The notes under the pieces were generated by a model that was not told where the DNA came from, did no database searches, and saw only the letters and a program-made list of their open reading frames with translations. The translations under genes were made by a program, and so were the position numbers. From Isoptericola sp. AK164 (GTDB lineage: Bacteria; Actinomycetota; Actinomycetes; Actinomycetales; Cellulomonadaceae), in contig NZ_CP119106.1 in the NCBI RefSeq assembly GCF_029643425.1, positions 3,224,001 to 3,288,000 on the forward strand: a stretch of 64,000 nt of DNA, given 5' to 3'. Shown here one piece after another: positions 48,681 through 64,000 of the stretch (its first letter is position 1; every line of letters starts with the position of its first letter).

Positions 48681-48814
48681 TCCTACCTCGTGGAGGAGTT
48701 GCCTACCTCGGCGAAGAATCGCCTACCTCGCGGAAGAGTTGCCTACCTCGGCGAAGAGTTGCCTACCTCGGCGAAGAGTTGCCTACCTCGCCGAGGACTT
48801 GCCTACCTCGCGAG
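48681..48814. repeat. 20-bp tandem repeat (7 copies)
   Basis: Units of 20 bases start at 48681, 48701, 48721, 48741, 48761, 48781 and 48801, the core being GCCTACCTCGGCGAAGAGTT; copies 4 and 5 are identical, others differ at one to six positions and the last is partial. The array lies between the endonuclease IV-like gene and the response-regulator gene, whose stop codon falls inside the last copy. The unit length is not a multiple of three and no consistent coding frame runs through it. Confidence 0.9.
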
Positions 48815-49477
48815 TCCGGCGTCGTGCACGGCGATCGCCGCCTGCACCCGGTTCCCCGCCGCCAGCTTGTCGAGGATCCGCGAGACGTGCGTCTTCACGG
48901 TGGGCACGCTCATGTACAGCTCACCGGCGATCTCCGCGTTGGACAGTCCCCGGGCGAGCACGACGGCCACGTCCCGCTCCCGCGCGGTCAGGGTCTCCAC
49001 CCGGCGGCGTGCCGCCCGGCGACCGACCTCCGACTCCGCGGCCGCGCCGCCCGAGACCCGGTCGATGAGCTGGGCCGTCACCGACGGCGACAGCGTCGGC
49101 TCCCCTGCCGCGGCCGCCCGCACGGCGGCGACCAGCCGGTCCGGCGGCGTGTCCTTGAGCAGGAACCCCGCCGCCCCGGCGCGCAGCGCCCGCACGACCA
49201 TGTCGTCCGTGTCGAACGTGGTCAGGACGATCACGCGCGGCGCGTCGGCGTCCGTCGAGGCCAGCTGCCGCGTCGCCTCGATCCCGTCGACACGGGGCAT
49301 GCGGATGTCCATGAGCACCACGTCCGGCCGGAGGCGGCGTACCAGGGCCACGCCGTCGTCGCCGTCCCCCGCGTCGCCCACGACCCGCACCTCGGGCGCC
49401 CCGCCGAGGATCAGGCCCAGCCCGGCCCGCACCAGGGGGTCGTCGTCCACCACCACCACGGAGATCGCGTCGGTCAT
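48803..49477 (-). CDS. LuxR-family response regulator
   Basis: 224 residues. Receiver domain with VVVVDDDPLVRAG (acidic pocket), VLMDIRMPRVDG (phosphoacceptor Asp), VLTTFDTDDMV and FLLKDTP; LuxR-type HTH LTARERDVAVVLARGLSNAEIAGEL with the SVPTVKTHVSRIL recognition helix. Partner of the histidine kinase encoded just upstream (ATGA overlap). Its gene ends in the tandem repeat array. Probably controls the divergent ABC exporter gene pair beginning at 50869. Confidence 0.95.
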   Translation of the reverse strand: MTDAISVVVVDDDPLVRAGLGLILGGAPEVRVVGDAGDGDDGVALVRRLRPDVVLMDIRMPRVDGIEATRQLASTDADAPRVIVLTTFDTDDMVVRALRAGAAGFLLKDTPPDRLVAAVRAAAAGEPTLSPSVTAQLIDRVSGGAAAESEVGRRAARRRVETLTARERDVAVVLARGLSNAEIAGELYMSVPTVKTHVSRILDKLAAGNRVQAAIAVHDAGLAR

Positions 49478-50739
49478 GACGCCCACGGTAGCCACGCCCG
49501 CACCGCGAAGGAGTCGCCGGACGCGCCTGCGGTGAGAGACCCCCCGGCGAGCTCGGCCCGCTCCTCCAGACCCAGCAGGCCGAGCCCCGACGGCGACACC
49601 ACCGCGCCGTCACCGCGGCGCGGCACGGGCTCCGCCTCCGCGACCGGGTTCGACACCGTGATCCACAGCCCCTGACCGGGGCCGCCCCGCAGCACCACCG
49701 ACGCCGGCATCCGCGCGGCGTGCTTGCGCACGTTCGTCAGCGCCTCCTGCACGATCCGGTACGCGGTGCGGGACGTCGCCGTCGGCAACCGGTCCACGTC
49801 GACGGTGCGGTCGACCAGACGCACCGGCACCCCGGCGTCCCGGGTCGCGGCCACGAGCTCCTCGACGGCGGCCAGCGTCGGCTGCGGCCCCTCGGGCGGG
49901 CCCTCGGCGTCCGCACCGTCCAGCCCGCGCAGCACCCCGAGCACCTCGCGCAGCTCGCCGAGCGCCTCGTGGGCGCTGTCGCGGACCAGGCCGGCGGTCT
50001 CGGCGACCTTCTCCGGCGGCAGGTCGCTGCGGTACGCGAGCGCGCCGGCGTGCATCGCCACCAGCGACATGCGGTGCGCGAGCACGTCGTGCATCTCCCG
50101 GGCGATCCGCGCCCTCTCGTTCGCCCGTGCCTGGGCGACCCGGCTCGCCTGCTCGCGCTCCGCCGTCGCGACCCGCTCGTGCAGCTCGGCGACGTGCTCC
50201 CGCCGCAGCCCGACGTACGCGCCGATCCAGACCATCAGCGCGAACAGTCCGACACCGCTGGCGACGTCGACGACCCAGGTCGTGCCGTCGTCCACCGGGT
50301 AGAGGACCCCGTAGGCCCAGCCGCCCACGACGAAGACCACCCCGACCAGGCCGATGCGCCACCAGCGCCGGTGCGTCGCGAGCGAGACCACCGCGAGCGT
50401 CAAGGGTCCCGAGGCGAACACCGAGACCGTCGACGCCGCCGCGATCAGCAGCGCGACAGCCGTGGGGAACCGGTGGCGCAGCACCACCAGACCGAAGCAG
50501 AGCAGCCCCACGGCGATGTCCAGGGCGAGGCGGTCGGGGCTGGACGCGCGCTGGCCGGTCTCCACCTCCCACACGACCGCACCGGCCACCAGCATGCTGA
50601 CGGCGAAGGCCGCCAGCAGCCGCCACGTCTCGGCCCAGACCCGCCGCCACCGGACCGGAGGTCCGTCCGGCGCACCGGCGGCCGGGGACGGAGCGTCGCT
50701 CGGGTCGACCCGGTACGGGTCGGCGGACGGGGTGGGCAC
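49474..50739 (-). CDS. DesK/HisKA_3-type sensor histidine kinase
   Basis: 421 residues. A proline-rich cytosolic start, then about five membrane helices (about 35-180). The HisKA_3 dimer domain shows ARIAREMHDVLAHRMSLVAMHAG, with the phosphoacceptor His in MHDVLAH, and the ATP-binding domain ends in SGLGLLGLEERAELAGGSL. It phosphorylates the response regulator encoded immediately after (four-base overlap). GTG 50739 is leaderless-type after TAGGCT (50751-50746). Ligand unknown. Confidence 0.95.
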   Translation of the reverse strand: MPTPSADPYRVDPSDAPSPAAGAPDGPPVRWRRVWAETWRLLAAFAVSMLVAGAVVWEVETGQRASSPDRLALDIAVGLLCFGLVVLRHRFPTAVALLIAAASTVSVFASGPLTLAVVSLATHRRWWRIGLVGVVFVVGGWAYGVLYPVDDGTTWVVDVASGVGLFALMVWIGAYVGLRREHVAELHERVATAEREQASRVAQARANERARIAREMHDVLAHRMSLVAMHAGALAYRSDLPPEKVAETAGLVRDSAHEALGELREVLGVLRGLDGADAEGPPEGPQPTLAAVEELVAATRDAGVPVRLVDRTVDVDRLPTATSRTAYRIVQEALTNVRKHAARMPASVVLRGGPGQGLWITVSNPVAEAEPVPRRGDGAVVSPSGLGLLGLEERAELAGGSLTAGASGDSFAVRAWLPWAS

Positions 50740-50745
50740 GTGGCG

Positions 50746-50751
50746 AGCCTA
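50746..50751 (-). promoter_or_regulatory. -10 element TAGGCT of the histidine kinase gene
   Basis: TAGGCT on the minus strand six bases before GTG 50739; leaderless start likely. The divergent ABC gene starts 118 bases away. Confidence 0.55.
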
Positions 50752-50868
50752 GGCCGCGGCCCGACGCCGGGCATCAGCCGAAGGGATGAGCCGGAACCTC
50801 CGACCGGACGAGACGGACCCGCCGCACGGGCGATGTGCGCGCCCGCGTCCGGACGGGAGCCTGAGGGC

Positions 50869-51768
50869 ATGATCACCGTGGAGCACCTGACCAAGAGGTA
50901 CGGCCCGGTCCTGGCCGTGGACGACGTCTCGTTCACGGCCGATCCGGGGGTCGTCACCGGCTTCCTCGGCCCCAACGGCGCCGGCAAGTCGACCGCCATG
51001 CGCATGATGTGCGGCCTGACACCGCCGACGAGCGGCACGGCCCGCGTCCTCGGCCGGCCGTACGCGGCCCTGGCCAACCCTGGACGGCGCGTGGGCGTGC
51101 TGCTCGACGCCTCGGCCCAGCACGCCGGTCGCACCGGCCGCGAGACGCTGACGCTGTCGGCGCTGCTGACCGGGGTCGACCGGCGCCGCGTCGACGAGGT
51201 GCTCGACGTCGTCGGGCTCACTCCCGCCGAGGCCGGACGTCGTGTGCGCACCTACTCGCTGGGGATGCGTCAGCGGCTCGGCCTCGCGACCGCGCTGCTC
51301 GGAGATCCCGACGTCCTGATCCTCGACGAGCCCGCCAACGGCCTCGACCCCGCCGGCATCCGGTGGATGCGGGACCTGCTGCGCGACTTCGCGGGCCGTG
51401 GCGGCACCGTGCTGCTGTCCAGCCACCTGCTGGCCGAGATCGAGCAGGTCGCCGACCGGCTCGTCGTCATCGGCCGCGGCCGGGTCGTGGCGGAAGGCAC
51501 CAAGGACGAGCTGCTGCGCGCGGCCGGCATGGTGGTCCGCTCGCTGGACGACGTCGCCCTGGCCGCCGCGCTGCGCCGCGCCGGCGTCGACGTCGAGCCG
51601 GGTGCCCAGGGCGGGCTGGCCGTCGCCGCGGACGCCGAGACCGTGGCGCGGACCGCCGTCGGCGCGGGCGTCCTCGTGACCGAGCTGCGCCCCGCCGACT
51701 CCCGCGGGCTGGAGGAGCTGTTCCTCGAGCTCACCGCCGCGGACGCCCGCGAGGAGGTGGCGGCATGA
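50869..51768 (+). CDS. ABC exporter ATP-binding protein
   Basis: 299 residues: Walker A GPNGAGKST, DASAQHAG-region Q-loop, signature YSLGMRQRLGLA, Walker B VLILDEPANGLD, and SSHLLAEIEQ H-loop. A C-terminal regulatory extension follows residue 220. ATG 50869 is preceded by GAGG. The stop overlaps the permease start. Divergent from the histidine kinase gene, suggesting the two-component system regulates this exporter; cargo (lipid, peptide or drug) not predictable. Confidence 0.93.
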   Translation: MITVEHLTKRYGPVLAVDDVSFTADPGVVTGFLGPNGAGKSTAMRMMCGLTPPTSGTARVLGRPYAALANPGRRVGVLLDASAQHAGRTGRETLTLSALLTGVDRRRVDEVLDVVGLTPAEAGRRVRTYSLGMRQRLGLATALLGDPDVLILDEPANGLDPAGIRWMRDLLRDFAGRGGTVLLSSHLLAEIEQVADRLVVIGRGRVVAEGTKDELLRAAGMVVRSLDDVALAAALRRAGVDVEPGAQGGLAVAADAETVARTAVGAGVLVTELRPADSRGLEELFLELTAADAREEVAA

Positions 51769-52580
51769 GCGCCGTCGACCAGACCCGGACCGGCCACCGC
51801 CCCGGCACGCGCACCGGCGCGCGCACCGCGGCCGAGATCCGCCCCGTCCCCTTCTCCCGCCTGACGCTGGTCGAGTGGCGCAAGCAGCTCGACACCCGGG
51901 CCGTGCGGTGGCTGTTCGTCACCATCGCGCTGCTGACGGCCGGCGTCGTCACCGTGACGGCCCTGGTCGGCGAGGGCGACGTGTCGTTCGAGACGTTCGT
52001 CTCGAACACCTCCACACCCCTGGCCATGCTGCTGCCGATCGTCGCCATCCTGGCCACCACGGCGGAGTGGTCGCAGCGCACCGCGCTGACCACGTTCACG
52101 CTCGAACCCCGGCGCGGGCGGGTCGTCGGGGCCAAGCTGCTGACCGCCGTCGGCTCCGGGCTGGCATTCTTCGTCGTGGCCGTGGGGATCGCCGCCGTCG
52201 CCCACCTCGGTGTGGTGACGCTGCGCGACGCCTCGCCGGACTGGGGACTCGGCGCGATGACCGCCGGCATGGCCCTGATGATCGTGCTGTGGATGGTCCA
52301 GGGCGTCGCGTTCGGCCTGGCGCTGCAGAGCACCCCGGCCGCGATCGTCGTCTTCCTCGCGGTGCCGACCATCGTCGGGGCGATCACGATGCTGCTGACC
52401 GCCTGGTCCGACGTGTGGCCCTGGCTCGACCTCTCCACGTCGTCCGTCCCGCTGATCATGGGCGAGCCGCTCGGCGGCACCGGGTGGGCGCAGCTGGCGA
52501 CGTCGGCGGCGATCTGGGTCGGCCTGCCCCTGGCGGTCGGCGTCCGGCGCGTGCAGCGCGGGGAGGTCAAGACCTCCTGA
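51765..52580 (+). CDS. ABC-2 exporter permease
   Basis: 271 residues with about six hydrophobic segments (WLFVTIALLTAGVVTVTALVG, TPLAMLLPIVAILATTAEW, LLTAVGSGLAFFVVAVGIAAVAHL, MALMIVLWMVQGVAFGLAL, IVVFLAVPTIVGAITMLLTAW and a last helix near LATSAAIWVGLPLAV). Forms the membrane half of the exporter encoded with the upstream ATPase (ATGA overlap). Ends five bases before the convergent endonuclease gene. Confidence 0.88.
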   Translation: MSAVDQTRTGHRPGTRTGARTAAEIRPVPFSRLTLVEWRKQLDTRAVRWLFVTIALLTAGVVTVTALVGEGDVSFETFVSNTSTPLAMLLPIVAILATTAEWSQRTALTTFTLEPRRGRVVGAKLLTAVGSGLAFFVVAVGIAAVAHLGVVTLRDASPDWGLGAMTAGMALMIVLWMVQGVAFGLALQSTPAAIVVFLAVPTIVGAITMLLTAWSDVWPWLDLSTSSVPLIMGEPLGGTGWAQLATSAAIWVGLPLAVGVRRVQRGEVKTS

Positions 52581-52585
52581 CCCGC

Positions 52586-53476
52586 TCAGCGGGGACCGAG
52601 GGTGATGGCGGCCGGCTCGCTCAGCTCCGTCCAGCCCGCGGACGGCGGGCCGGCCGCCGCCAGCGGCTCCAGGGCCCTGCGCTCGGTGGGCACCACGTCC
52701 GCCCCGACCAGCGGGCCGAGGTCGAGGCCGGTCAGGTCCGCGAGGTCGGCGACCGGTACCTGGAAGGTGCGGTACGGGCCCAGCGGCGGGACGTTCCCCA
52801 CCGCGAGCGCCCGCCCGGTGGCGGTGCTCAGCTCGGCGTCGGTGAGCAGGGGCGACTGGTCGAGCAGGAACCCCGCCGAGCGCAGGACGCGTTCGCCGTC
52901 GACCTCCGTCACCCAGGCGGCGGCCTTCCAGAACCGTCGCGGCAGGGGGACGCCACGGTAGACGGGGTCGGCGTCGGCGAAGACGCAGCCGGTCAGCACG
53001 ACGACCCGGTGGTCGTGGGCGTCGGCGAACGCCAGGACGTGGTCCTCCAGCCCGTTCCACAGGCTCTTGGACTGGTTGAACTCGTCGACCTGCGGGGCGG
53101 CGTTGGTGTAGACGAAGGTCGCCTCGCCGGCGTCGCGCGCCTCCTCCTCGGTGCCCCACATCGGGTCCAGGCGGCGCACGAGATGACCGCGGTCGAGGAC
53201 GTTGTGGTGGTACAGGTCGTTGTCGGCCTGCTCCGCGGGCGGCGCCTGGGGGTCGAGCCGCCACGACCCGGAGCGGGCCAGCGGCTGCAGGCGGGCGCCG
53301 TCGATCATGCAGGCGGTGGCGACCGCCAGCCGGCGCCCGGAGTGCAGCAGCACGCTGAAGTGCGGGTGGTCGAGCCGGCGCAGCTCGGCCGGGTCGGGCC
53401 CGCCGTCGGCCGGTACCGGCAGCGGGACGCGCAGCCGGTCGTCGCGGTCGAGAAAGCAGGCGTCGTACCCCGTCAT
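52586..53476 (-). CDS. DNA/RNA non-specific endonuclease (DRGH type)
   Basis: 296 residues. The family signature VLDRGHLVRR supplies the catalytic His of the DRGH motif, followed by the metal-binding Asn segment TNAAPQVDEFNQ. No signal peptide is seen, unlike many secreted relatives, so an intracellular or regulated role is possible. ATG 53476. It lies immediately downstream of the four-gene propeller array on the same strand (34 bases), which may or may not be meaningful. Confidence 0.88.
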   Translation of the reverse strand: MTGYDACFLDRDDRLRVPLPVPADGGPDPAELRRLDHPHFSVLLHSGRRLAVATACMIDGARLQPLARSGSWRLDPQAPPAEQADNDLYHHNVLDRGHLVRRLDPMWGTEEEARDAGEATFVYTNAAPQVDEFNQSKSLWNGLEDHVLAFADAHDHRVVVLTGCVFADADPVYRGVPLPRRFWKAAAWVTEVDGERVLRSAGFLLDQSPLLTDAELSTATGRALAVGNVPPLGPYRTFQVPVADLADLTGLDLGPLVGADVVPTERRALEPLAAAGPPSAGWTELSEPAAITLGPR

Positions 53477-53510: not shown

Positions 53511-55190
53511 TCACGATCCGGTCGTGTAGCCCGTCAGGCCCCGCGGGGACCACCGCAGCAGGTGGCCCGACGCCGCCAGCTCCAGCCCCCAGCCGTCCGC
53601 GGCCAGCTCGGTGGACCACAGGTCCTCCCCCGTCCTGACGTCGACGGCACGCCACCGGGAGACCACCCGCTCGCCGGTGTAGGTGGGCACGACCACGGCC
53701 ACGACGGCGCCGTCGGTGAACGCCGCCTCGAGCTCGCCGCTCCGGCCGCCGCCCTCCAGGGCCGTGAACTGGGTGACGACGTCGTCGCGCACCCAGCGCA
53801 CGGTGCCGTCGGACCGGTCCAGCCCGAGGACGCGGTCCTGGACGTCCAGGACGACGGCGACCTCCTCGGTCCGGGCCAGGAACGTCTGTGTGTTCACGTC
53901 CGCCGTCCACAGCTCCTGACCGTCCTGGTCCAGCGCGACCGTGCGGGCGGCGTGGGCGACCAGCTGCTGGCCGCCGCCCCCGCCCACGGTGGACAGGGGT
54001 TCGAGCAGCCTCCCCTCCACGGTGTACCAGTGCTCGCCGTCCGGACCGAGGACGGCGTGGTCCCACACCGGCAGGTTCCAGACGCCGGAGGAGACGACGA
54101 AGCCGCCGTCGGCGAGCGGCCGGACCCGGCGCACCGTGCCCGCCTCGTCGTCGCCGTCGTCGTCCGGCAGGTCCAGCCGCTTCCCGTCGGGGGTGACGTA
54201 GGCGAGGATGCCGCAGCCGGCGACCCCGATCAGCTGCTGGCTGACCGCGTGGTCGAGGGTGGCCCGCCGGTCGACCTGCGCGTTGCGGCCCCCGGTGTCC
54301 CAGCTGACGCACTGCGTGGCGTCGCGGACGGTCCCGAAGGGCACCGTCGTGGCCCAGCGCTCCTCGTCGGTCACGGCGTCCACCGCCCGCAGCTGCAGGT
54401 CGTACCCGTCGTCGATGTCGCCGAGGACGGTGAGGTTCGTCAGCGGGTCGCCGCGCAGCTCCACGTCGACGTCGTCCGGGTCGCCGGTCCACGTCGCCGA
54501 CACCAGGGTGCCGCGGGGTCCCGGCACGAGCAGGTCGTGCTCGCCCTCGACGGTGCGGCGCACCAGGACGCTGCCGTCGTCCTCCACGACGGTGACGTCC
54601 ACCGCGTCGTCGGTCGTCCCGGCGACGCAGACCACGAGCTCCGCCGGTCGCAGGTCGACGGTGTCGCCCCAGATCGCCAGCCCGGGCCCGCAGCTCGCGT
54701 CGGTCGCGGTCAGCTCGACGGTCCAGACGGGCTGACCGGTCCGCAGGTCGACCCCGACGAGCTCGTCGTGGTGCAGCACGGCGGCCACGTCGCCCTCCAT
54801 CGCGATCAGTCCGCCGGTCAGCCCGATGCCGCCGACGTCCTCGTCGAGGCGCCAGGACTCGAACGGCGGACCCGACAGGTCGCTCACCCCGCCCGCCGCC
54901 GCCCGCAGGTCGTCCCCGCGCCACCGGTCGACGACGCCCTCGACCACGACCACCGCGGCGAGCGCGACCACCGCGGCCACCGGCACGCCCCACCGCAGCA
55001 GGCGGGGCCGGTCGGCCCAGCGCCGTCGGGCACCGGCGAGCAGGGCGGGGGGCTCGGCCTCCGGGGCGGTACCCGGCTCGGGTTCCTCCGCGACCCGCCG
55101 GCCCGCAGGGTGCTGCCCGGCCTCGGACCCGTCCTCGGGCACGAGGTCGAACGTGAACGCCCCCTGGGGGGCACCGCGTCGTCGCCCCAC
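53511..55190 (-). CDS. Membrane-anchored PQQ/beta-propeller-like protein, array member 1
   Basis: 559 residues, transcriptionally the last of four paralogues. Short basic cytosolic start with GRRRG ... FTFDLVPED, one membrane helix (about residues 68-85, VAAVVALAAVVVV), then an ectodomain with repeated W-containing propeller strands: GVDLRTGQPVW, GLDRSDGTVRW, AVDVRTGEDLW. It carries the shared AAGGVSDL element after the helix and the paired cysteines SCGP...CVAG. GTG 55190 follows the -10 TAACGT after six bases. No catalytic signature was recognised. Confidence 0.85.
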   Translation of the reverse strand: MGRRRGAPQGAFTFDLVPEDGSEAGQHPAGRRVAEEPEPGTAPEAEPPALLAGARRRWADRPRLLRWGVPVAAVVALAAVVVVEGVVDRWRGDDLRAAAGGVSDLSGPPFESWRLDEDVGGIGLTGGLIAMEGDVAAVLHHDELVGVDLRTGQPVWTVELTATDASCGPGLAIWGDTVDLRPAELVVCVAGTTDDAVDVTVVEDDGSVLVRRTVEGEHDLLVPGPRGTLVSATWTGDPDDVDVELRGDPLTNLTVLGDIDDGYDLQLRAVDAVTDEERWATTVPFGTVRDATQCVSWDTGGRNAQVDRRATLDHAVSQQLIGVAGCGILAYVTPDGKRLDLPDDDGDDEAGTVRRVRPLADGGFVVSSGVWNLPVWDHAVLGPDGEHWYTVEGRLLEPLSTVGGGGGQQLVAHAARTVALDQDGQELWTADVNTQTFLARTEEVAVVLDVQDRVLGLDRSDGTVRWVRDDVVTQFTALEGGGRSGELEAAFTDGAVVAVVVPTYTGERVVSRWRAVDVRTGEDLWSTELAADGWGLELAASGHLLRWSPRGLTGYTTGS

Positions 55191-55196
55191 ACCCCG

Positions 55197-55202
55197 ACGT
55201 TA
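55197..55202 (-). promoter_or_regulatory. -10 element TAACGT overlapping the previous gene's stop
   Basis: TAACGT ends six bases before GTG 55190 on the minus strand, and its first three bases are the TAA stop of array member 2. Internal promoter of the array, apparently leaderless. Confidence 0.45.
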
Positions 55203-56888
55203 GCGCGGTTCGAGCATCTTCACCGCAGCGATCCGCGGCCAGGCGGCGAATCCCCCGCCGCCCGGGTCGAGCTCGTGAAGCAGCAGGTGGCCGTCGACGG
55301 CGGTGACCCACGGCAGCCCGTCCCCGTCCAGCTCCGTCCGGCGGGCGTCCCCGGTGGCGAGGTCCACCGTCACCAGGCTGCCGGCCCAGGTCGGACCGCC
55401 GTCGAGGCCCTCCACGAGCGCGACCGTGACCCGCTCACCGTCGGTGACCGCCGAGGTGGGCTGGACCCAGCGACCGTCCGGGGCGGGGTGGACCAGGTCG
55501 ACGCGCCACCGCTCGCGCCCGTCGGCGTCGTCCAGCGCCACCAGCTCCGAGGACGCGTCGGTCGCCACCACCGTCGTCCCGGCCGCGCGGGCGAGCACGT
55601 CCGGGTCGCCCCCGAGCTCCGCCTCCCAGCGGACGGCGCCGTCGCCGCCGATCCCGACGGCGGTGCTGAGCTCGCGGACGACGACCAGCTCCGGCTCGAC
55701 CGGCCCCACCTGCGCCACGGGGACGCGGACTCGACCGCCGAGGTCCTCCCGCCGACCTTCCTCGGCGGTCACGAGCACGGTGCCGCCCCGGGGACCGGGA
55801 ACGACCTGCCCACCGCCCGGGAACGGCTCCACCACGCCGAGACCCTGCAGGTCGGCGAACGAGACGCCGGTGACGTCGGCCACGTCGAGCGGCGTGCCAT
55901 CGGTCGCCAGCCCGGTGCCGCCCTGGCACATCTGGTAGCCCACGACCGACGGCGTCGCGACGGGCTGCCGCACCCCCCACAGCTCGATCCGGGTGGTCGC
56001 CGGTCGCGGTCGTCCCTCGGCGTCGGCGCTGAACCACACGCAGTCCTGCAGCGACATCGGCCAGCGGTTCGCCGTGCTCTCGGCACGCACCTGCCCGGTG
56101 AGCGCGTCCTCCACCCGCAGCGTCGCCGCGCCCAGGCCGTTCGGGTCGATCTCCTCGACGAGCTGCTGGGTGGTCGGCGAGTTCTCGACCGTCCGACGGC
56201 CGGGCAGGTCGATCACGTGCTCGACCACGGCCAGGCCGCCGGCGGCGGCCGGCGCGACCCGCACGTGCTCGCCGCCGTAGACCTCCGGGTCCAGGACGCG
56301 GTCCCCGACGACGGCACCGTCGGCGTCCAGGACCGTCACGGTGCGCTCACCGTCGTCGCCGTGCACGCACGTCAGGGTCGTGCTCGGCATCGTCCACTCG
56401 ACCCCGCTGCTCAGCCGCGGTCGCGGGCCGCACTCCAGGTCGGGTCCGAGCGCGGCGCGCCACACCTCGCTGCCGTCGGCCGCGTCGTGCACGACCAGCG
56501 TCCGGTCCTCGACGAAGGCCAGCCGGCCGCCGTCGAGCACGGCGACCACCCCGGACCCGTCCCGGCTCCACGCCTCGGTCAGCTCGCCCGCGAGGGAGAG
56601 CACGCCACCCGGTGCCGCCCGCAGCCGCTCCGACTCGAGGTGGGCCGCCGCCGCCCCGCCGGCGACCAGCCCGCCCACCAGGACGAGGACCGCGCCGCCG
56701 CCGACACCCACCGTCGCGCGCCGCCGACGCGGGGACGCCGCCCGCCACCACGCCGCGGCACGCTCGAGCCACCCCGGCCGCGGCGGCTCCGGCGTCCTCG
56801 CCCCGCCGTCGTGCCCCGCGCCGGCGTCGACGGACGTGTCGACCGAGACGTCGAAGGAGACCATCGCGTCGTCACGGCGCCTCGCCAT
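55200..56888 (-). CDS. Membrane-anchored PQQ/beta-propeller-like protein, array member 2
   Basis: 562 residues. Starts MARRRDDAMVSFDVS, single helix near residues 60-80 (VGVGGGAVLVLVGGLVAG), then APGGVLSLAGELTEAWSRD and the cysteine pair ECGPRPRLS...TCVHG. Propeller-type strands: VVHDAADGSEVWRA, ALDDADGRERWRVDL, TVDLATGDARRTEL. ATG 56888 shares its A with the TGA of array member 3 (TGATG), so translation is coupled. Most similar to member 3 by eye (the ECGPRPRL...EWT...CVHG block). Confidence 0.85.
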   Translation of the reverse strand: MARRRDDAMVSFDVSVDTSVDAGAGHDGGARTPEPPRPGWLERAAAWWRAASPRRRRATVGVGGGAVLVLVGGLVAGGAAAAHLESERLRAAPGGVLSLAGELTEAWSRDGSGVVAVLDGGRLAFVEDRTLVVHDAADGSEVWRAALGPDLECGPRPRLSSGVEWTMPSTTLTCVHGDDGERTVTVLDADGAVVGDRVLDPEVYGGEHVRVAPAAAGGLAVVEHVIDLPGRRTVENSPTTQQLVEEIDPNGLGAATLRVEDALTGQVRAESTANRWPMSLQDCVWFSADAEGRPRPATTRIELWGVRQPVATPSVVGYQMCQGGTGLATDGTPLDVADVTGVSFADLQGLGVVEPFPGGGQVVPGPRGGTVLVTAEEGRREDLGGRVRVPVAQVGPVEPELVVVRELSTAVGIGGDGAVRWEAELGGDPDVLARAAGTTVVATDASSELVALDDADGRERWRVDLVHPAPDGRWVQPTSAVTDGERVTVALVEGLDGGPTWAGSLVTVDLATGDARRTELDGDGLPWVTAVDGHLLLHELDPGGGGFAAWPRIAAVKMLEPR

Positions 56889-58558
56889 CAGGCCCCGCCC
56901 TCGCCGGGAGCCAGCACCCGCAGCCCCACCACCGGCGTCGTGGCGTCGCCGAGGAGCACCTCGTCGGCCGGCAGCTCGGGCACGACGAGGTGGCCGTCGA
57001 CGGCCAGCACGGTGCGCGTGGCGACGTCCCGCACCCGCGGGGCCACCTCCTGCCCGGTGCGCAGGTCGAGCGTGAACAGCGACAGCTCGGCCGTGGCCTC
57101 GACGGAGACGTCCATCAGCACGCCCGTCATCCGGACGCCGTCGGTGACCGCCGAGAGCACGTACCGCCGCGGACCGGCGTCGGGGGCCAGCCGCCACCGC
57201 TCGGTCCCGTCGGCCGCGTCGTAGCCGACCAGCTCGTCCCAGCCGCTGACCACCACGAGGTCGTCGGTGCGCACCAGGACGCGGGGGCTCTCACCCGGCG
57301 CGCTCCATCGCTCGCTCCCGTCCTCGGCGAGCAGGACGACACGCTCGGCGCCCTCCACGGCGACGTACCCGTCGCCGGCGGTCCCGTCCGTCGCGGGCAC
57401 CTCCAGACGCAGGCCGGGGACGTCGAGGACCGGTTCGCCGTCGTCGGCGAGGAGGCTGCTGCCCTCCCCGGCCGGCACGACGAAGCGCTCGTCCGGGTAC
57501 GGCTGGCGCACGGACTGCCGCGGCCACGTCGTGGCGAGCGCGGACCGGTACCCCAGGGGGACGCCCGTGTAGGTCGCGGCGCCGTCGGCGGCGCAGCCCG
57601 CGAAGCCGACCATCGTCGGCGTCCCCAGCGTCGCGCCGAGGTCCAGCGTGGCCCGGCCGGCCGTCCCCAGGCCGGAGGAGTCGACCTCGTCCTCCCCCAG
57701 CGTGTAGCAGTCGACGCCGTGCGCCCACGGCAGCTCGACCAGGTCCAGGGTCTGCCGACGTTCCCCGGTCAGCGCGTCCTCGAGCCAGGTCCGCGTGTCT
57801 CCTCCGTCGACCTCCATCTGGCTCAGCTCGGAGAACATCTCGTCCGGCGTGGCGAAGGTGAGGCGCTCCGGCAGGTCGGTGTCGTGCTCGGTGACGGCCA
57901 GCGCGCCGTCCGCCGCCGCGACCACCGACCGGGCCTGGCCGCCGTACCGTTCGGCCGCCAGCCCGCGCTGCCCGACGACGGCACCGTCGGCGTCGAGCAC
58001 CGTGACGGCACGGTTCCCGGCCCGGCCGTGCACGCACGTCACCGTCTCGACGGGCACCGTCCACTCCGCGACGCTGTCCAGCCGCGGCCTGGGACCGCAC
58101 TCCACCGCCCCGGTCAGGGTGACCTCCCAGCGTTCGGCACCGGTGGCGACCTCCCGGGCGACGACCCGGGGACCCTCGGTGGTGACGATCCCGCCCGCGG
58201 GCAGCACGGCCGCGATGCTGCTGACGTCGGCGCTCCAGACCTCGGTGAGCGGCCCGTCCAGGGAGAGCACCCCGCCCGGGGCGGTGCGCAGCCGCTCGGC
58301 CTCGACGTGGTTCGCCAGCGTCGACGCCGCCACGGTGCCGCCGGTCAGCACCACGGCCGCGCCGGCGACGAGGGCGGTCGCCGTGCGGCGCTGGCGCCGC
58401 GTCGCGGCCCGCCACCAGCGGCGGACCCGGTCATGCCGGGGCGCCGCGGCGCCGCCGTCCGCCCGCCCGTCGCCGGTGCGGGCGGCGTCGTCGACCCCGT
58501 CGTCGGCGTCGTGGGAGACGTCGAAGGTGACGACGTCGTCCCGGCGTGGTCGGCCCAT
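56888..58558 (-). CDS. Membrane-anchored PQQ/beta-propeller-like protein, array member 3
   Basis: 556 residues. Starts MGRPRRDDVVTFDVSHD, one helix (about 60-80, ATALVAGAAVVLTGGTVAA), then TAPGGVLSLDGPLTEVWSADV and ECGPRPRLDS...TCVHG. Propeller strands: AREVATGAERWEV, GYDAADGTERWRLAPD, TLDLRTGQEVAP. ATG 58558 lies six bases after TAGATT, which itself overlaps the TAG stop of member 4. Function unknown; an extracellular sensor or scaffold is conceivable. Confidence 0.85.
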   Translation of the reverse strand: MGRPRRDDVVTFDVSHDADDGVDDAARTGDGRADGGAAAPRHDRVRRWWRAATRRQRRTATALVAGAAVVLTGGTVAASTLANHVEAERLRTAPGGVLSLDGPLTEVWSADVSSIAAVLPAGGIVTTEGPRVVAREVATGAERWEVTLTGAVECGPRPRLDSVAEWTVPVETVTCVHGRAGNRAVTVLDADGAVVGQRGLAAERYGGQARSVVAAADGALAVTEHDTDLPERLTFATPDEMFSELSQMEVDGGDTRTWLEDALTGERRQTLDLVELPWAHGVDCYTLGEDEVDSSGLGTAGRATLDLGATLGTPTMVGFAGCAADGAATYTGVPLGYRSALATTWPRQSVRQPYPDERFVVPAGEGSSLLADDGEPVLDVPGLRLEVPATDGTAGDGYVAVEGAERVVLLAEDGSERWSAPGESPRVLVRTDDLVVVSGWDELVGYDAADGTERWRLAPDAGPRRYVLSAVTDGVRMTGVLMDVSVEATAELSLFTLDLRTGQEVAPRVRDVATRTVLAVDGHLVVPELPADEVLLGDATTPVVGLRVLAPGEGGA

Positions 58559-58564
58559 ACCGTG

Positions 58565-58570
58565 AATCTA
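58565..58570 (-). promoter_or_regulatory. -10 element TAGATT overlapping the previous gene's stop
   Basis: TAGATT on the minus strand ends six bases before ATG 58558; its TAG is the stop codon of array member 4. Leaderless start for member 3. Confidence 0.5.
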
Positions 58571-60172
58571 GTTCGCCAGGCCGACGAGTGCGGCGTCGGA
58601 GGTCTCGACCTGCACCCCGTCGACGGTGCGGATGTACCCTCCGCCCATCGCGTCGGCGAGGACGACCCGCCCGTCGATCACCGTCACCTGCCCGTAGCGG
58701 GCGTCGTACGCCTGGTTCCAGCGGGTGCGACCGTCGGCGAGGTCGAGGGCGACGAGGTCGGTCTGCGGGCCGCCGGACACGGTCACCAGGACGATCTCCC
58801 CGTCGGTGGCCGCTGCCCCGACACCCCCCTGCTCGGTCGTGACCACGTCGTCGCGTGTCCACCGGATCTCCCCCGTGTCCAGGTCGACGGCCTGGACGCG
58901 GTTCTCCGGGACCATCGCGAGAACCGCCGTGCCACCGGCACGCGCCAGGTACCGCGGAAAGCCCGCCACGTCGATCGTCCACAGGCGCTCCCCGGCGTCG
59001 TCGACGGCGGACAGCCGGTCGGACCCGACGAACACGAGGCGCGGCCCGCCCGGTGCGTCCAGAGCCGGCGGCGGGAGCACGGACCCCGGCACCACGGCCT
59101 CCTCGGCGCCGGAGGCGTCCAGCACGCGCGTGCTCTCGTCGGCGGTGTACTCCAGGAACCCGCCGTCGACCGACGGCACGCGCATCGCCTCGTGGCGCTC
59201 GCCGTCGGGGGTCACCGTCACCGACCGCCCGCACACGTCGAGCCGGACGGCGAAGCCCCACGCCCACAGCGAGGGGTTGACGAACACCCGGTCGCGACTC
59301 GTACCCGTGCCACAGGGTGCGAGGTCCTCCGCGCGGACCACGAGCGTCTCCTCGGCGCGGACCTCGCCGGTCAGCACGTCCTCCACCCGGACGGTCGGGT
59401 CCTGCCAGCGGCCGTCGGCGCGGGCCTGCGCCAGGCCGGTCTCCAGATCCTCCCCGTCGAGCGTGAGCTCCCGCGCGCCGCCCTCGAGCACCGCGACGGT
59501 GCCGTCCCCCGCCGGGAGGACCTGCGGTGCACCGTCGACCCAGGCACCCCGCTGCCCGTGGTTGGCGACACCGAGCTCCCGGTCGCCGAGCACCGTGCCC
59601 GAGGCGTCCAGCACGGTGGCGGTGCGCTCCGGCGTGCCGTGCACGCACACGAGGGCCTCGATACCGGTGGAGAGCAGTCCGCGCAGGTTGTCCGGGCCGC
59701 ACTCGACGAGAGCCCCCAGCTCGTGGCGCCACACCTCGTCCCCCGTGGCGACGTCGACCCCGAGCACGTCGGTCCCGTCGCGCGTGACGACGACCCCGCC
59801 GGGCAGCACCGCGACGACGCCCTCGTCGGTCTCCACCCGCCAGGTCTCCTCCAGCGGGACGGACAGGTCCGCGACGCCGCCCGGCATCTCTGCCATGTGC
59901 TCGGCGTGCGCGGCGTCGGACCGGGCGTCGAGCGCGGCGACCCCGGCCGCCGTCCCGACGACGGCGACCGCGGTGACGCCGACGATCCCGGCCCGCAGGC
60001 GGCGCGGCGTCGCCCGCCAGCGCTCCCGGACGGGTCCGGCGACGCGGCGGCCGAACCAGCCGGGCTCGACGGGCTCGCCGGCCGACCCGGCAGCAGCACT
60101 CGTCCCTGCGTCTCCTGGCCCGTCCTCGTCCGGGACCAGGTCGAACTGCACGGGATCACGTCGTCGAGCCAT
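58568..60172 (-). CDS. Membrane-anchored PQQ/beta-propeller-like protein, array member 4
   Basis: 534 residues, first of the array in transcription order. Starts MARRRDPVQFDLVPDED, one helix (about 60-80, AGIVGVTAVAVVGTAAGVAAL), then EMPGGVADLSVPLEETWRVE and ECGPDN...VCVHG. Propeller strands: GVDVATGDEVWRHE, AVDLDTGEIRWTRD, ALDLADGRTRWNQA. ATG 60172 follows TAGATT after seven bases; an upstream in-frame ATG at 60193 is less likely. Shares the N-terminal DLVPDEDG with member 1 (DLVPEDG). Confidence 0.85.
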   Translation of the reverse strand: MARRRDPVQFDLVPDEDGPGDAGTSAAAGSAGEPVEPGWFGRRVAGPVRERWRATPRRLRAGIVGVTAVAVVGTAAGVAALDARSDAAHAEHMAEMPGGVADLSVPLEETWRVETDEGVVAVLPGGVVVTRDGTDVLGVDVATGDEVWRHELGALVECGPDNLRGLLSTGIEALVCVHGTPERTATVLDASGTVLGDRELGVANHGQRGAWVDGAPQVLPAGDGTVAVLEGGARELTLDGEDLETGLAQARADGRWQDPTVRVEDVLTGEVRAEETLVVRAEDLAPCGTGTSRDRVFVNPSLWAWGFAVRLDVCGRSVTVTPDGERHEAMRVPSVDGGFLEYTADESTRVLDASGAEEAVVPGSVLPPPALDAPGGPRLVFVGSDRLSAVDDAGERLWTIDVAGFPRYLARAGGTAVLAMVPENRVQAVDLDTGEIRWTRDDVVTTEQGGVGAAATDGEIVLVTVSGGPQTDLVALDLADGRTRWNQAYDARYGQVTVIDGRVVLADAMGGGYIRTVDGVQVETSDAALVGLAN

Positions 60173-60185: not shown

Positions 60186-60217
60186 TCTCTCATGATTGCC
60201 CCAAGAAAGTCCCTCGA

Positions 60218-61459
60218 CTAGCCCTGCGGGCGCAGCGCCTGCCGCCAGGAGATGCGTCCGCCGGTCTGCAGCAGCGACCCGCGGAACGCCCGCTCCGAGA
60301 CGAGCAGCGCCACGGCGGCGAACGCGGCCAGGAGCACCAGCGCGATCACGGGCTCCCACCACGCCGCGTCCCCGGAGAGGATCCGGGCCGGCATGGCCAC
60401 CACGGAGGCGATCGGCACGTACGACAGCACGGTCAGGAACGTGCCCGAGGCCGTGAACGTCACGAAGTACACACCCATGACCAGGAACGTCATCGGGGTC
60501 GCCGTGTACTGCAGGTCCTCGGCGCGGCTGGCCAGGGCACCGGCCACGGCGTACAGCGCCGCCAGCGCGAGGAACCCGACGGCGAAGAACACCACGAACC
60601 AGATCAACGACGTCGACAGCGCGGGCAATGCCATCGACACCGGGCTCGCCGAGACCGCGACCATCCCGACGCCGGCGAACAGCAGGTTCTGCCCGACGGC
60701 GATCACCGAGCTGCCCAGGATCTTGCCCGCCAGGAGCTGGCGCAGCGGCACCGCCGTCGCGATGATCTCCACCAGCCGCGACTGCTTCTCCTCGACCACC
60801 GAGCTGGCGATCATGTTGCCCGACGTGATCGCCCCCGCGAAGAACAGGAACGACAGCGCGAACGTCGCGAAGAACAGCGCCTGCTCGCCGACCGCGTCGG
60901 GCTCGAGGGCCTCGGTGGTCAGCTCCGCACCGGCCGACAGCTCGGCCACCGACGTGCCGGCGGCCTCCGCGTTCGCGGCGACGACCTGCTGCTCGACGGC
61001 GGTGGACACGTACCGCTGCAGGTCACCGCCGGGCTCGCCCTGGCCGGCCAGCACCCAGCCGTCGTCGCCCGGGTGCAGCCAGGCGTCGGCGTCGCCGGAC
61101 TCCAGCGCCGCGCGCGCGGCGTCCGCGTCGGCGGTCTCGAGCACCTCGACCTCGGTGTTGCCCCCTTCCGCCGCCGCGACCTCGCCGGCCGAGGTGGCCG
61201 CGGCGACAGCCGCGCTGTCGGCGCCGCTCACCGCGACGGTGGAGGTGTCGACCCGGTTGGCCTGCCAGGCGAAGAAGGCCGCGAGCGCCGCGATGACGAC
61301 CAGTGAGGTCACGAGCCCGATGACGAACGCCTTGTTCATCACCCGCGTGACGATCTCGCGCTGCATCACCAGACGCCAGGCGCCGCGGGTGCTGTCGTCC
61401 GGGGACTCGGGCGCCGGGGTCGGTACGAGCCGGGCCTGCTCCTGGGTGGACGTGGTCAT
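60218..61459 (-). CDS. ABC-2 permease (NatB-like sodium/drug exporter family)
   Basis: 413 residues. A first helix (AFVIGLVTSLVVIAALAAFFAW) follows the MQREIVTRVMNKAF segment typical of NatB-like permeases, then a large extracytoplasmic domain (about 65-215) and five or six C-terminal helices; SGNMIASSVVEEKQSRLVEII is the characteristic cytosolic loop. ATG 61459 overlaps the ATPase stop (ATGA). Ends 45 bases upstream of the propeller array, same strand. Confidence 0.9.
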   Translation of the reverse strand: MTTSTQEQARLVPTPAPESPDDSTRGAWRLVMQREIVTRVMNKAFVIGLVTSLVVIAALAAFFAWQANRVDTSTVAVSGADSAAVAAATSAGEVAAAEGGNTEVEVLETADADAARAALESGDADAWLHPGDDGWVLAGQGEPGGDLQRYVSTAVEQQVVAANAEAAGTSVAELSAGAELTTEALEPDAVGEQALFFATFALSFLFFAGAITSGNMIASSVVEEKQSRLVEIIATAVPLRQLLAGKILGSSVIAVGQNLLFAGVGMVAVSASPVSMALPALSTSLIWFVVFFAVGFLALAALYAVAGALASRAEDLQYTATPMTFLVMGVYFVTFTASGTFLTVLSYVPIASVVAMPARILSGDAAWWEPVIALVLLAAFAAVALLVSERAFRGSLLQTGGRISWRQALRPQG

Positions 61460-62343
61460 GAGGTCACCTCGCGGTAGATCTGGGCCAGGGAGGGGCGGAC
61501 CGGGGAGAGCTCGCGGACCGCACCGCGCTCGAGCGCCGTGGCGAGCAGGCGCTGGGCAGCCGCGTCGTCGGCCAGCTCGAGCAGCGCCGTCGGACCGTCC
61601 ACGTCGACGGCGTGCACGCCGGGTACACCCCGGACCCAACCGGCGTCGCCGTCGAGCACCAGGCGGTGCCGCAGCGTGCCGGTCTCCTGCAGCTCGGCCG
61701 GCGTGCCGTCCGCGACGACCCGGCCGCCGCGCAGGATCACGAGACGCTCGCACAGGCGCTCGACCAGGTCGAGCTGGTGCGAGCTGAACAGTACCGGGAC
61801 CCCCCGGGCCGTGTGCTGTCGCAGCAGGTCGACCATGTCGTCCACCGCGGTGGGGTCCAGCCCCGAGAAGGGCTCGTCGAGGATCAGTGCGCGCGGCCGG
61901 CCCATGAGGGCCGCCGTGATCTGGACGCGCTGCTGGTTGCCGAGGCTGAGCTTCTCCACGTGGTCGCGGGCGCGCTCGCCGAGCCCCAGCCGCTCCAGGT
62001 GCTCCAGGGCCTCGGCACGCGCCGTCGCGGCGGGGATGCCACGCAGCCGGGCGAGGTAGACGAGCTGGTCGAGCGCCGGCTGCTTGGGGTACAGGCCGCG
62101 CTCCTCGGGCATGTACCCGAACGTGCGCCGGTCCGCGCGGGTCACCGGGGCGCCGTCGAACAGCACCTCCCCGGAGGTGGCCGCGAGGACACCCATCATC
62201 ATGCGCATCGTGGACGTCTTGCCGGCGCCGTTGGAGCCGACGAACCCCGTGAGCATGCCGCCCCGGGCGGCGAAGGAGACGCCGTCGACCGCCCGCAGGT
62301 CGCCGAAGGTTCTGGTCAGGTCCCTGACCTCGAGAGTGGACAT
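61456..62343 (-). CDS. ABC exporter ATP-binding protein (NatA-like)
   Basis: 295 residues. Walker A GSNGAGKTS, YMPEERGLYP (the NatA-type Q-loop region), signature LSLGNQQRVQI, Walker B ALILDEPFSGLD and SSHQLDLVERL. The C-terminal extension is typical of NatA. ATG 62343 lies seven bases after TAGGTT (62356-62351); an upstream start at 62412 is rejected on this basis. Pairs with the downstream NatB-like permease. Substrate unknown. Confidence 0.94.
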   Translation of the reverse strand: MSTLEVRDLTRTFGDLRAVDGVSFAARGGMLTGFVGSNGAGKTSTMRMMMGVLAATSGEVLFDGAPVTRADRRTFGYMPEERGLYPKQPALDQLVYLARLRGIPAATARAEALEHLERLGLGERARDHVEKLSLGNQQRVQITAALMGRPRALILDEPFSGLDPTAVDDMVDLLRQHTARGVPVLFSSHQLDLVERLCERLVILRGGRVVADGTPAELQETGTLRHRLVLDGDAGWVRGVPGVHAVDVDGPTALLELADDAAAQRLLATALERGAVRELSPVRPSLAQIYREVTS

Positions 62344-62593: not shown

Positions 62594-63583
62594 GTGCCCT
62601 CCCCACCGCTCGTCGTCCCGGACCGCGCTCACCGGATCGCTTCCCGGCAGGAGGGACTGCTCTCGATCGACCAGTGCCGGTCGTCCGGGGTCACCCGCCA
62701 GCAGGCGGCACGCCTGGTCGCCCAGGGGCGCTGGAGCCGACCGGTCCGCGGTGTGTACGACGTCGGCGTCGGCGGGGACCCGGCGCGGGACCGGCTGGAC
62801 CGTGCTCGCCGCCGGGCCTCCCTGCTCGGGCCGCTGGCGTGCCCCGGCACGGTGGTCACCGGCGTCGCCGCGCTGGTCCTGCACGGCGTCCACGGCGCAC
62901 CGCTCGACGTCCGGCCCGAGGTCACGGTCCCGGACGGGTCGGCCCGCCGGGGCCCCGACCCGGTCCGCGTCCGCCGGCTGCGGCTCCGCCGCTGGTCGGA
63001 GGTCGACGGCGTCGCGTGCGCCCTCCCGGAGGACGCGTTGGCCCAGGCGGTCCCCGCCCTGCCGCGGTACCGCGCCGTCGCGATGATGGACTCGGCGGGC
63101 CACCGCGGCCTCGTCTCGCGCGCCGGCCTCGACCGGGCCCGGGAGAAGTCCGGCGACCTCGTCGGGGCGGCCGCGCGCCGGTCCTGGTGGGACGAGTGCG
63201 ATCCCCGGGCAGAGTCGCCGGCCGAGACCTGGGCACGCCTTGGCTGCGTCGACGCCGGCGTCGCGCCGGACGCGCTGCAGCTCCGGCTGGTCACGTCGTC
63301 CGGGCTGGTCGTGGCCCGGGTCGACCTGGCGTGGCTGCTCCCCGGCGACAGCGCGCTCCTGGTCGAGATCGACGGTCGTGACGTCCACTCCCGGCTCGAC
63401 GCCGTCGTCGCGGACCGCGCCCGGCAGAACCGGATCGCCGGCCGACGGACGCTGGTACGCCGCTACACCGGACGGGACGCCTGGGACGGCACCGTCGCCC
63501 GGGAGGTGGCTGCCGTCCTGGCCGCCGAGGGCTGGTTCCCGCAGCGTCCCCCGGTGGACCACCGGTTCGTCCTGCCGTCGTGA
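62594..63583 (+). CDS. AbiEi-like N-domain plus DUF559/Vsr-like nuclease-fold protein
   Basis: 329 residues. The N-terminal part (LLSIDQCRSSGVTRQQAARLVAQGRW ... RPVRGVYDVG) resembles the winged-helix AbiEi-type domain. The C-terminal part (SALLVEIDGRDVHSRLDAVVADRARQNRIAGR ... LVRRYTG) has the EIDGxxxH and D-R-N pattern of DUF559/Vsr-like nucleases. Such proteins are common, usually solitary, in Actinobacteria; neither nuclease nor antitoxin activity is shown here. GTG 62594 is used; no clear ribosome-binding site. Bracketed by four 27-bp GTCAG elements. Confidence 0.8.
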   Translation: MPSPPLVVPDRAHRIASRQEGLLSIDQCRSSGVTRQQAARLVAQGRWSRPVRGVYDVGVGGDPARDRLDRARRRASLLGPLACPGTVVTGVAALVLHGVHGAPLDVRPEVTVPDGSARRGPDPVRVRRLRLRRWSEVDGVACALPEDALAQAVPALPRYRAVAMMDSAGHRGLVSRAGLDRAREKSGDLVGAAARRSWWDECDPRAESPAETWARLGCVDAGVAPDALQLRLVTSSGLVVARVDLAWLLPGDSALLVEIDGRDVHSRLDAVVADRARQNRIAGRRTLVRRYTGRDAWDGTVAREVAAVLAAEGWFPQRPPVDHRFVLPS

Positions 63584-63712: not shown

Positions 63713-64000
63713 TCAGGCGTTCCCGGCCAGTCCGTGCCGGTGGACGTAGACGACCGCCTGGACCCGGTCGCGCAGGTGGAGCTTGCCCAGGACGTTCGAC
63801 ACGTGGGTCTTGACCGTCGCCTCGCCGAGGAACAGCTCCGCGGCGATCTCCGCGTTGGACATCCCCCGGCCCACCAGCACGAGCACCTCGCGCTCGCGGG
63901 CGGTCAGGCGGTCCAGGTCCGGGGCCGACGGCGGCACCCCGGCGCCCCGGACCGCCCCGGCACCCGTCGTCCCGGCGCCGGCCCGCCCGGTATCGACCGT
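63713..64000 (-). CDS. LuxR-family response regulator, C-terminal part (cut by window edge)
   Basis: 95 residues remain: a Gly/Ala-rich linker and a complete Lux[29 protein letters not shown] then [26 protein letters not shown]. The receiver domain lies beyond base 64000. No stop interrupts the frame to the window end. Very similar in its HTH to the regulator at 48803-49477. A cognate kinase would be expected just outside the window. Confidence 0.93.

Follow-up and report, generated by a model that had tools for sequence, protein, structure and literature searches.

The array and its genomic setting

We describe four consecutive paralogous genes of Isoptericola sp. AK164, designated w1 to w4, each encoding a propeller-type protein with a predicted membrane anchor. 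The genes lie in a window of 64,000 nucleotides (contig NZ_CP119106.1, positions 3,224,001 to 3,288,000); coordinates below are positions in this 64-kb window, and residue numbers follow w1 unless stated otherwise. The four open reading frames are all on the minus strand: w1 (53511..55190, 559 residues, GTG start), w2 (55200..56888, 562 residues), w3 (56888..58558, 556 residues) and w4 (58568..60172, 534 residues from the ATG supported by orthologues). An alternative upstream ATG of w4 at 60193 gives a 541-residue form. The ATG of w2 and the stop codon of w3 overlap by one base. A profile of w1-w4 finds these four genes and nothing else in the 3.58-Mb one-contig genome (E 0.01).

According to Pfam searches, the neighbours on the same strand are an ATP-binding cassette (ABC) exporter gene pair and a DRGH endonuclease gene, as a preliminary description made from the letters of this DNA had proposed. 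The ABC-2 type permease gene (ABC2_membrane_3, 60218..61459, minus strand) lies 45 bases 5' of the w4 ATG (60172), and the gene of the DrrA/NatA-like exporter ATPase (ABC_tran/DrrA1-3_C, 61456..62343, minus strand) shares 4 bases with the start of the permease gene. The DNA/RNA non-specific endonuclease gene (Endonuclease_NS, PF01223, E 7e-38; 52586..53476, minus strand) begins 34 bases past w1. The order of transcription is ATPase, permease, w4, w3, w2, w1 and endonuclease, with gaps of -4, 45, 9, -1, 9 and 34 bases. Because these gaps are tiny or negative, the whole run is likely to be co-transcribed as a single transcript. A promoter and terminator scan, which was uninformative, gave no promoter-like site and a single terminator-like site, which lies within the permease gene. 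A response regulator gene (63713..64000, minus strand) runs off the window end, and a histidine kinase gene lies beyond it, just outside the window (L077:2433-3821:-).

Homology and conserved features

In whole-length BLASTP comparisons, w2 and w3 are 39% identical (E 8e-70), and w1 and w4 are 31% identical (E 5e-21). When only the ectodomains were compared (GGV onward, helix excluded), all six pairs matched, with identities of 28-38% and E values from 9.9e-60 to 2.6e-7. Because these ectodomain-only comparisons still match, the homology of w1-w4 extends past the helix, and a likeness limited to the helix or to composition is ruled out. The claim of four consecutive paralogous genes encoding 534-562 residues is thus borne out. 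Two outcomes had been set beforehand as contrary to it, namely one characterised family covering all four proteins and undetectable ectodomain homology; neither occurred.

Conservation was counted over 84 family proteins longer than 430 residues (83 distinct) from 36 loci, after 3 of the 87 family hits, of 430 residues or fewer, had been dropped. The 36 loci are the window, 15 named loci and 20 stretches picked from the stronger hits; this is not random sampling, and near-copies are present (L041 is identical to L073, and L038 nearly identical to L064). The genes of the loci were obtained with a simple codon-usage gene caller, whose starts are often too short, and protein clustering. Alignment A2 holds 36 of 38 rows, the truncated L044 and the second L042 piece being excluded.

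The basic start, the single membrane helix and the GGVxxL...W element are present in all four proteins, as described earlier. The long N-terminal helix of w1, the predicted membrane anchor, covers residues 63-97 (54900..55004, minus strand) according to the AlphaFold2 secondary structure and the hydrophobic stretch. The GGVxxL...ExW junction follows at residues 100-113 (54852..54893, minus strand), and the next strand appears to close the last blade. The residues G100, G101, V102, W113, C167, C188, C294 and C326 are invariant across w1-w4. Among the 84 relatives, W113 is found in all, G100 in 76 and G101 in 71. The conserved cysteine pair of the preliminary description, C167/C188, is indeed invariant, but a second invariant pair, C294/C326, had been overlooked; none of the 84 proteins lacks any of the four cysteines. 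Past residue 90, four cysteines are present in 52 of the 84 proteins, six in 25 and five in 7. The helix of w1-w4 contains no cysteine, and the four cysteines of each protein are all in the ectodomain. Two disulfides per protein, pairing C167 with C188 and C294 with C326, are predicted as likely in w1 and its paralogues.

The N-terminal motif [FI][DE][LVF], with one further residue, was detected in 75 of the 84 family genes and in 13 of 503 non-family genes, and a stricter form in 49 of 84 and 0 of 503; these controls are neighbouring genes, not the whole proteome. A strict N-terminal DNA pattern, searched in the whole genome, matches w1 and w4 only.

Predicted structure

AlphaFold2 models of w1 and w2 were obtained with a predicted local distance difference test score (pLDDT) of 83.3 and 85.0, and a predicted template modelling score (pTM) of 0.80 and 0.82, respectively. 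The N-terminal tail is modelled with low confidence, unlike the rest of both models. The strand list of w1 can be read as blades A to I; eight have an internal C-D hairpin, and the ninth appears to be closed by the strand after GGVxxL. A like blade order was obtained for w2, in which blade E is thin. The strand order in the two models suggests nine-bladed propellers whose ring is closed by the N-terminal strand. Most of blade B is gone in three Myceligenerans copies, and most of blade E in three. These losses fit modular blades, and therefore the blade number probably varies. The copies with blade loss are located at L040, L046 and L047, and the lost blade differs between the P and E types defined below.

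The proposed PQQ/beta-propeller nature of the ectodomains (PQQ, pyrroloquinoline quinone) is supported by the Pfam family PQQ_2 (PF13360), for which w1-w4 score 30.7-43.7 bits against a cut-off of 27.6. This is the sole Pfam model passing, and it is a broad repeat family whose membership carries no functional meaning. The NCBIfam search of w1-w4 gave no model above cut-off. Searching sequences of solved structures with w1 gave no convincing propeller; the best match was a designed pentatricopeptide protein (E 0.003). The regions matched by the family profile were short, in most cases one to three blades, and belonged to BamB, quinoproteins and designed Cake proteins.

Quinoprotein dehydrogenases carry a vicinal Cys-Cys disulfide. 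The PQQ-type repeats and a weak match to PF01011 would agree with PQQ-dependent dehydrogenases, but PF01011 stays under its cut-off in all four proteins and a vicinal Cys-Cys occurs in 0 of the 84 members. With the Cys-Cys missing and the models sub-threshold, a PQQ enzyme is rejected, and an activity of this kind appears exceedingly improbable. The earlier statement that no catalytic motif is seen agrees with this result, as no enzyme site was recognised.

BamB (YfgL), of the beta-barrel assembly machinery (BAM) complex, is a Gram-negative lipoprotein with eight blades. It shares the PQQ-type propeller with the array proteins and ranks first among the Foldseek matches of both models (best E 4.9e-13 and 1.3e-12). 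Overall, the structures agree poorly, with a TM-score of about 0.35 on the query and about 0.5 on the target, and a root-mean-square deviation of about 10 Å. Unlike BamB, w1-w4 have a membrane helix, invariant cysteines and an ectodomain of about 440-470 residues, compared with 327-392 residues for the BamB chains of the Protein Data Bank (PDB). BamB membership is excluded by scores of at most 27.3 bits against the NCBIfam cut-offs of 285.2 and 423, and w1-w4 are without the lipoprotein anchor cysteine.

Two other matches of the w2 model are actinobacterial or artificial propellers. Rv3035/MMAR_1667 (PDB 9p3g), an actinobacterial extracytoplasmic propeller, is the 13th structural match (E 3.2e-11); it was not among the 60 sequence matches listed from the family-profile searches of solved structures. 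According to PMC12802301, eight blades are predicted for this protein, MMAR_1667 has a lipoprotein signal, and MMAR_1667/Rv3035 was co-immunoprecipitated with FecB. The same paper gives a predicted complex with FecB and AftB, an attempted co-purification of AftB that failed, and a cited preprint on the FecB-Rv3035 structure. The designed, artificial propeller Cake9 (6tjh) is the 14th match. PMC7734218 describes a nine-fold backbone design, whose truncated variants adopt eight or nine blades.

Possible kinship with Rv3212

The Rv3212 family model (NF050114) gives weak matches at the helix and the first blade of w4 (E 3.6e-8) and w3 (E 2.7e-5). By hhalign, 106 columns were aligned (E 6e-5, probability 65%, template of 3 rows) and the remainder was unaligned. 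Thus, a distant partial kinship of the w1-w4 family with Rv3212 is possible on these alignments. Membership is rejected, as w4 reaches 33.0 bits against the 150 cut-off over residues 73-157 of its 541-residue form. Rv3212 proteins have about 400 residues, their genes adjoin a helicase gene in each of the three loci inspected, and, unlike the array, a single match is found in each of the 14 genomes above cut-off. Rv3212 is listed as a pull-down partner of FtsB, with 9 spectra and among the last entries listed (PMC6872210), and of Rv0954, with 12 spectra and high in the list (PMC8093794).

A Rv3212-like scaffold in the envelope or divisome, independent of the exporter, would account for the weak model matches of w4 and w3, the hhalign match and these two pull-downs. 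However, the score of 33 against 150 bits concerns the N-terminal part only, and a copy number of 1-7 with fast change is unlike a core divisome part. We regard a role of this kind as improbable.

Distribution, history and rate of change

In a first survey of 28 genomes, all 17 other genomes of the same genus had 1-5 matches, and a weak partial match was found in 1 of 10 genomes from other families. In a survey of 150 genomes of the bacterial family, with at most nine candidates scored per genome, 97 genomes from 18 of 25 genera matched (E <=0.001), with 1-7 matches each, some of them weak or partial. The named relatives of the array belong to Isoptericola, Cellulosimicrobium, Myceligenerans, Xylanimonas and Krasilnikoviella, and the closest are those of Isoptericola sediminis. 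Adjacent propeller genes in the 36 loci share a strand in 47 of 48 pairs.

In the careful tree, w2, w3 and w4 belong to a group of 28 (P), and w1, on the endonuclease side, to a group of 12 (E). Each group is one side of a branch with support 96/96; as the groups were drawn from a quick tree, the careful tree checks their support and is not an independent test. The nearest relative of w3 is w2, and their split lies inside Isoptericola, while other genera duplicated independently. The trees indicate that the array is old, because w1 and w2-w4 belong to different clades; a recent duplication of the whole array is ruled out by both trees.

Compared with their I. sediminis orthologues, w1-w4 show 60.6-74.1% identity and a ratio of nonsynonymous to synonymous change (dN/dS) of 0.34-0.58, whereas seven neighbour genes show 81.8-94.6% and 0.08-0.34. 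The value of w1 (0.34) is at the upper edge of the neighbour range. The row for 63713-64000 (0.742), comparing a cut gene with a non-orthologous regulator, was excluded. The array genes change faster than their neighbours and, as judged from these ratios, are still under purifying selection. The claim of retention after duplication is supported by the orthologues of all four genes in I. sediminis, the dN/dS values below 1 and the 96/96 support of the clades.

The higher dN/dS, together with the repeated lineage-specific duplication and the blade losses, could also be explained by fast-changing surface proteins that face phages, antimicrobials or competitors and are kept as a varied set. But dN/dS is below 1 in all four, the P type holds its position across genera, and the propellers are without a PADLOC match; this explanation seems rather improbable. 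A defence function is rejected, since the four propellers, the permease and the endonuclease are all without a PADLOC match. The 11 PADLOC matches of the ATPase are taken as generic ATPase similarity.

Gene order and the permease

The permease is present in 15 of the 36 loci; some flanks are short, so its absence elsewhere is no proof. In all 15, the nearest propeller lies downstream of the permease on the same strand. Permease and propeller are adjacent in nine loci, whereas the propeller is two genes on in three and three or four genes on in three; a 4-base overlap of permease and propeller is seen in 3 of the 15. The nearest propeller is P-type in 14 loci, the exception (L036) carrying an E-type copy only. 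Where a locus offers a choice, the P type is nearest in 13 of 13. The product of fractions, 3e-6, would hold only if the loci were independent, and these 13 come from four genera and are not. An E-type copy is nearest the endonuclease in 10 of 16 endonuclease loci (including the identical L041 and L073), and the other six have no E-type copy.

Among the same-genus genomes with the permease, our own included, a reading by hand finds a propeller downstream of it in 13 of 14, with strand and contig shared and gaps of up to about 3 kb in several. In the 14th (G006, 440 contigs), permease and propellers are on separate contigs. According to a hand count of apparently the same 150 genomes, every one of the 36 genomes with a close permease (E <=1e-104) has propellers, as do 61 of the 114 others, a contrast inflated by genome kinship. 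Conserved permease gene order, which had been taken as the mark of a NatAB-like exporter accessory, is thus found, yet the association is not universal. The gene order points to an old permease link in one branch. Only part of the family keeps the ABC and endonuclease neighbours.

A response regulator gene lies within four genes upstream of the permease in 10 of the 15 permease loci, and in Isoptericola sp. AK164 a kinase gene is present as well. These genes would suit stand-alone extracytoplasmic ligand sensors or co-receptors, which bind a small molecule or a wall fragment and signal through the tail, perhaps to the upstream histidine kinase. The variable loop face described below and the conserved cytoplasmic motif would also agree. 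However, the short tail has low predicted confidence, a ligand pocket was not defined, and the kinase/regulator pair was not seen near the Cellulosimicrobium-type arrays. We consider such sensors unlikely.

Proposed function

The array is real and well conserved, and it is assembled from known parts. We favor a role of the proteins as extracytoplasmic scaffolds, in which the P type is an accessory of a two-component-controlled exporter and the others have diverged for other partners; we give this reading a probability of about 0.4. Each protein would have a short basic tail with the F-D/E-L/V motif inside, a membrane helix, and a PQQ/BamB-like propeller outside that is braced by the two likely disulfides. 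The propeller would most likely be a docking platform for extracytoplasmic partners. Most likely, w4 would belong to the NatAB/DrrAB-like ABC exporter as an accessory subunit and share its transcript, under a NarL-type two-component system. In this scheme, w3 and w2 would be P-type paralogues after a further split, and w1, an older paralogue, would have a different partner.

A binding platform is favored because of the anatomy, the conserved cysteines and the lack of a recognised enzyme signature, and the exporter-accessory role of the P type because of the permease link; the functional reading rests on gene order. The scaffold reading, which the preliminary description had offered as speculation beside a sensing role, is strengthened by the permease gene order and by printed precedents, Rv3035 and AztD. 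These show that extracytoplasmic propellers can join envelope complexes or serve ABC systems, and are analogies, not cases of membership. AztD, the 23rd structural match of w2, is an extracytoplasmic propeller serving an ABC system, and passes zinc to an ABC binding protein (PMC6689063). Its partner is the binding protein of an importer, whereas the array adjoins an exporter.

The predicted faces of the propeller differ in conservation: the loops on one face carry 1.45 bits, compared with 1.85-2.27 for the strands and 2.16-2.61 for the loops on the other face. A wider proposal, doubtful in its entirety, is an unreported class of exporter accessories. These would be anchored, probably nine-bladed, disulfide-braced propellers in an array that grows and shrinks behind a two-component-controlled NatAB-like exporter; one ancient type would stay coupled to the permease, and its sisters would diverge on one face for other partners via the shared tail motif. 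No description of this propeller family was found in the literature searches made on Isoptericola propellers and on exporter-linked actinobacterial propellers.

Several observations weigh against the exporter-accessory role. In L035, L036, L057 and L058, 1.4-3.8 kb separate the permease and the nearest propeller. Many genomes carry propellers but not this permease. Cellulosimicrobium has propellers, and its best permease matches are only 34-36% identical. Two genomes of the same genus, G001 (one contig) and G015 (110 contigs), have propellers and no permease at E 1e-40, with 12 candidates scored each. Isoptericola sp. 4D.3 and Krasilnikoviella have, besides a propeller near the permease, a second array far from the exporter, which sits between enoyl-CoA hydratase and DUF3048 genes. 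The Cellulosimicrobium-type arrays adjoin branched-chain amino-acid ABC genes, a GGDEF gene and a prolyl oligopeptidase gene. The N-terminal motif is missing from three P-type Myceligenerans copies, and it is also present in copies distant from the exporter. The propellers have a dN of 0.17-0.31, compared with 0.06 for the permease. Finally, the contrast between the faces may be normal for PQQ-type blades, with structural C-D turns.

Such propellers are usually annotated by their repeats alone, as PQQ-like or BamB-like. The present family is a tractable case, since a permease-linked type and variable sister copies occur within one cluster. If the link is physical, an extracytoplasmic subunit would be added to an exporter class usually taken as two-part, and the cluster would show how a propeller array diversifies. 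If it is not, the family is still a clear case of fast lineage-specific expansion under purifying selection.

Other features in and around the window

A plus-strand gene with no Pfam match (62753-63583) lies between the response regulator gene and the ABC pair, and relatives were found in 2 of the 35 other loci. A lipoprotein-like gene just beyond the window (L077:3942-5306:-) is without a Pfam match; the C terminus of its product is His/Glu-rich, and it may resemble AztD. In genus g100, a D-Ala-D-Ala carboxypeptidase-like gene (Peptidase_M15_4, L058:4152-4721:-) separates the exporter from the array, and L057 has a related gene.

On the other side of the array, the region 48803-52580 holds a second histidine kinase/response regulator pair, which faces a second ABC ATPase gene and a likely permease gene with no Pfam match; this group is convergent with the endonuclease gene. 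A tandem repeat of period 20 with 6.4 copies (48682-48810) lies nearly all between the AP_endonuc_2-type gene and a response regulator gene.

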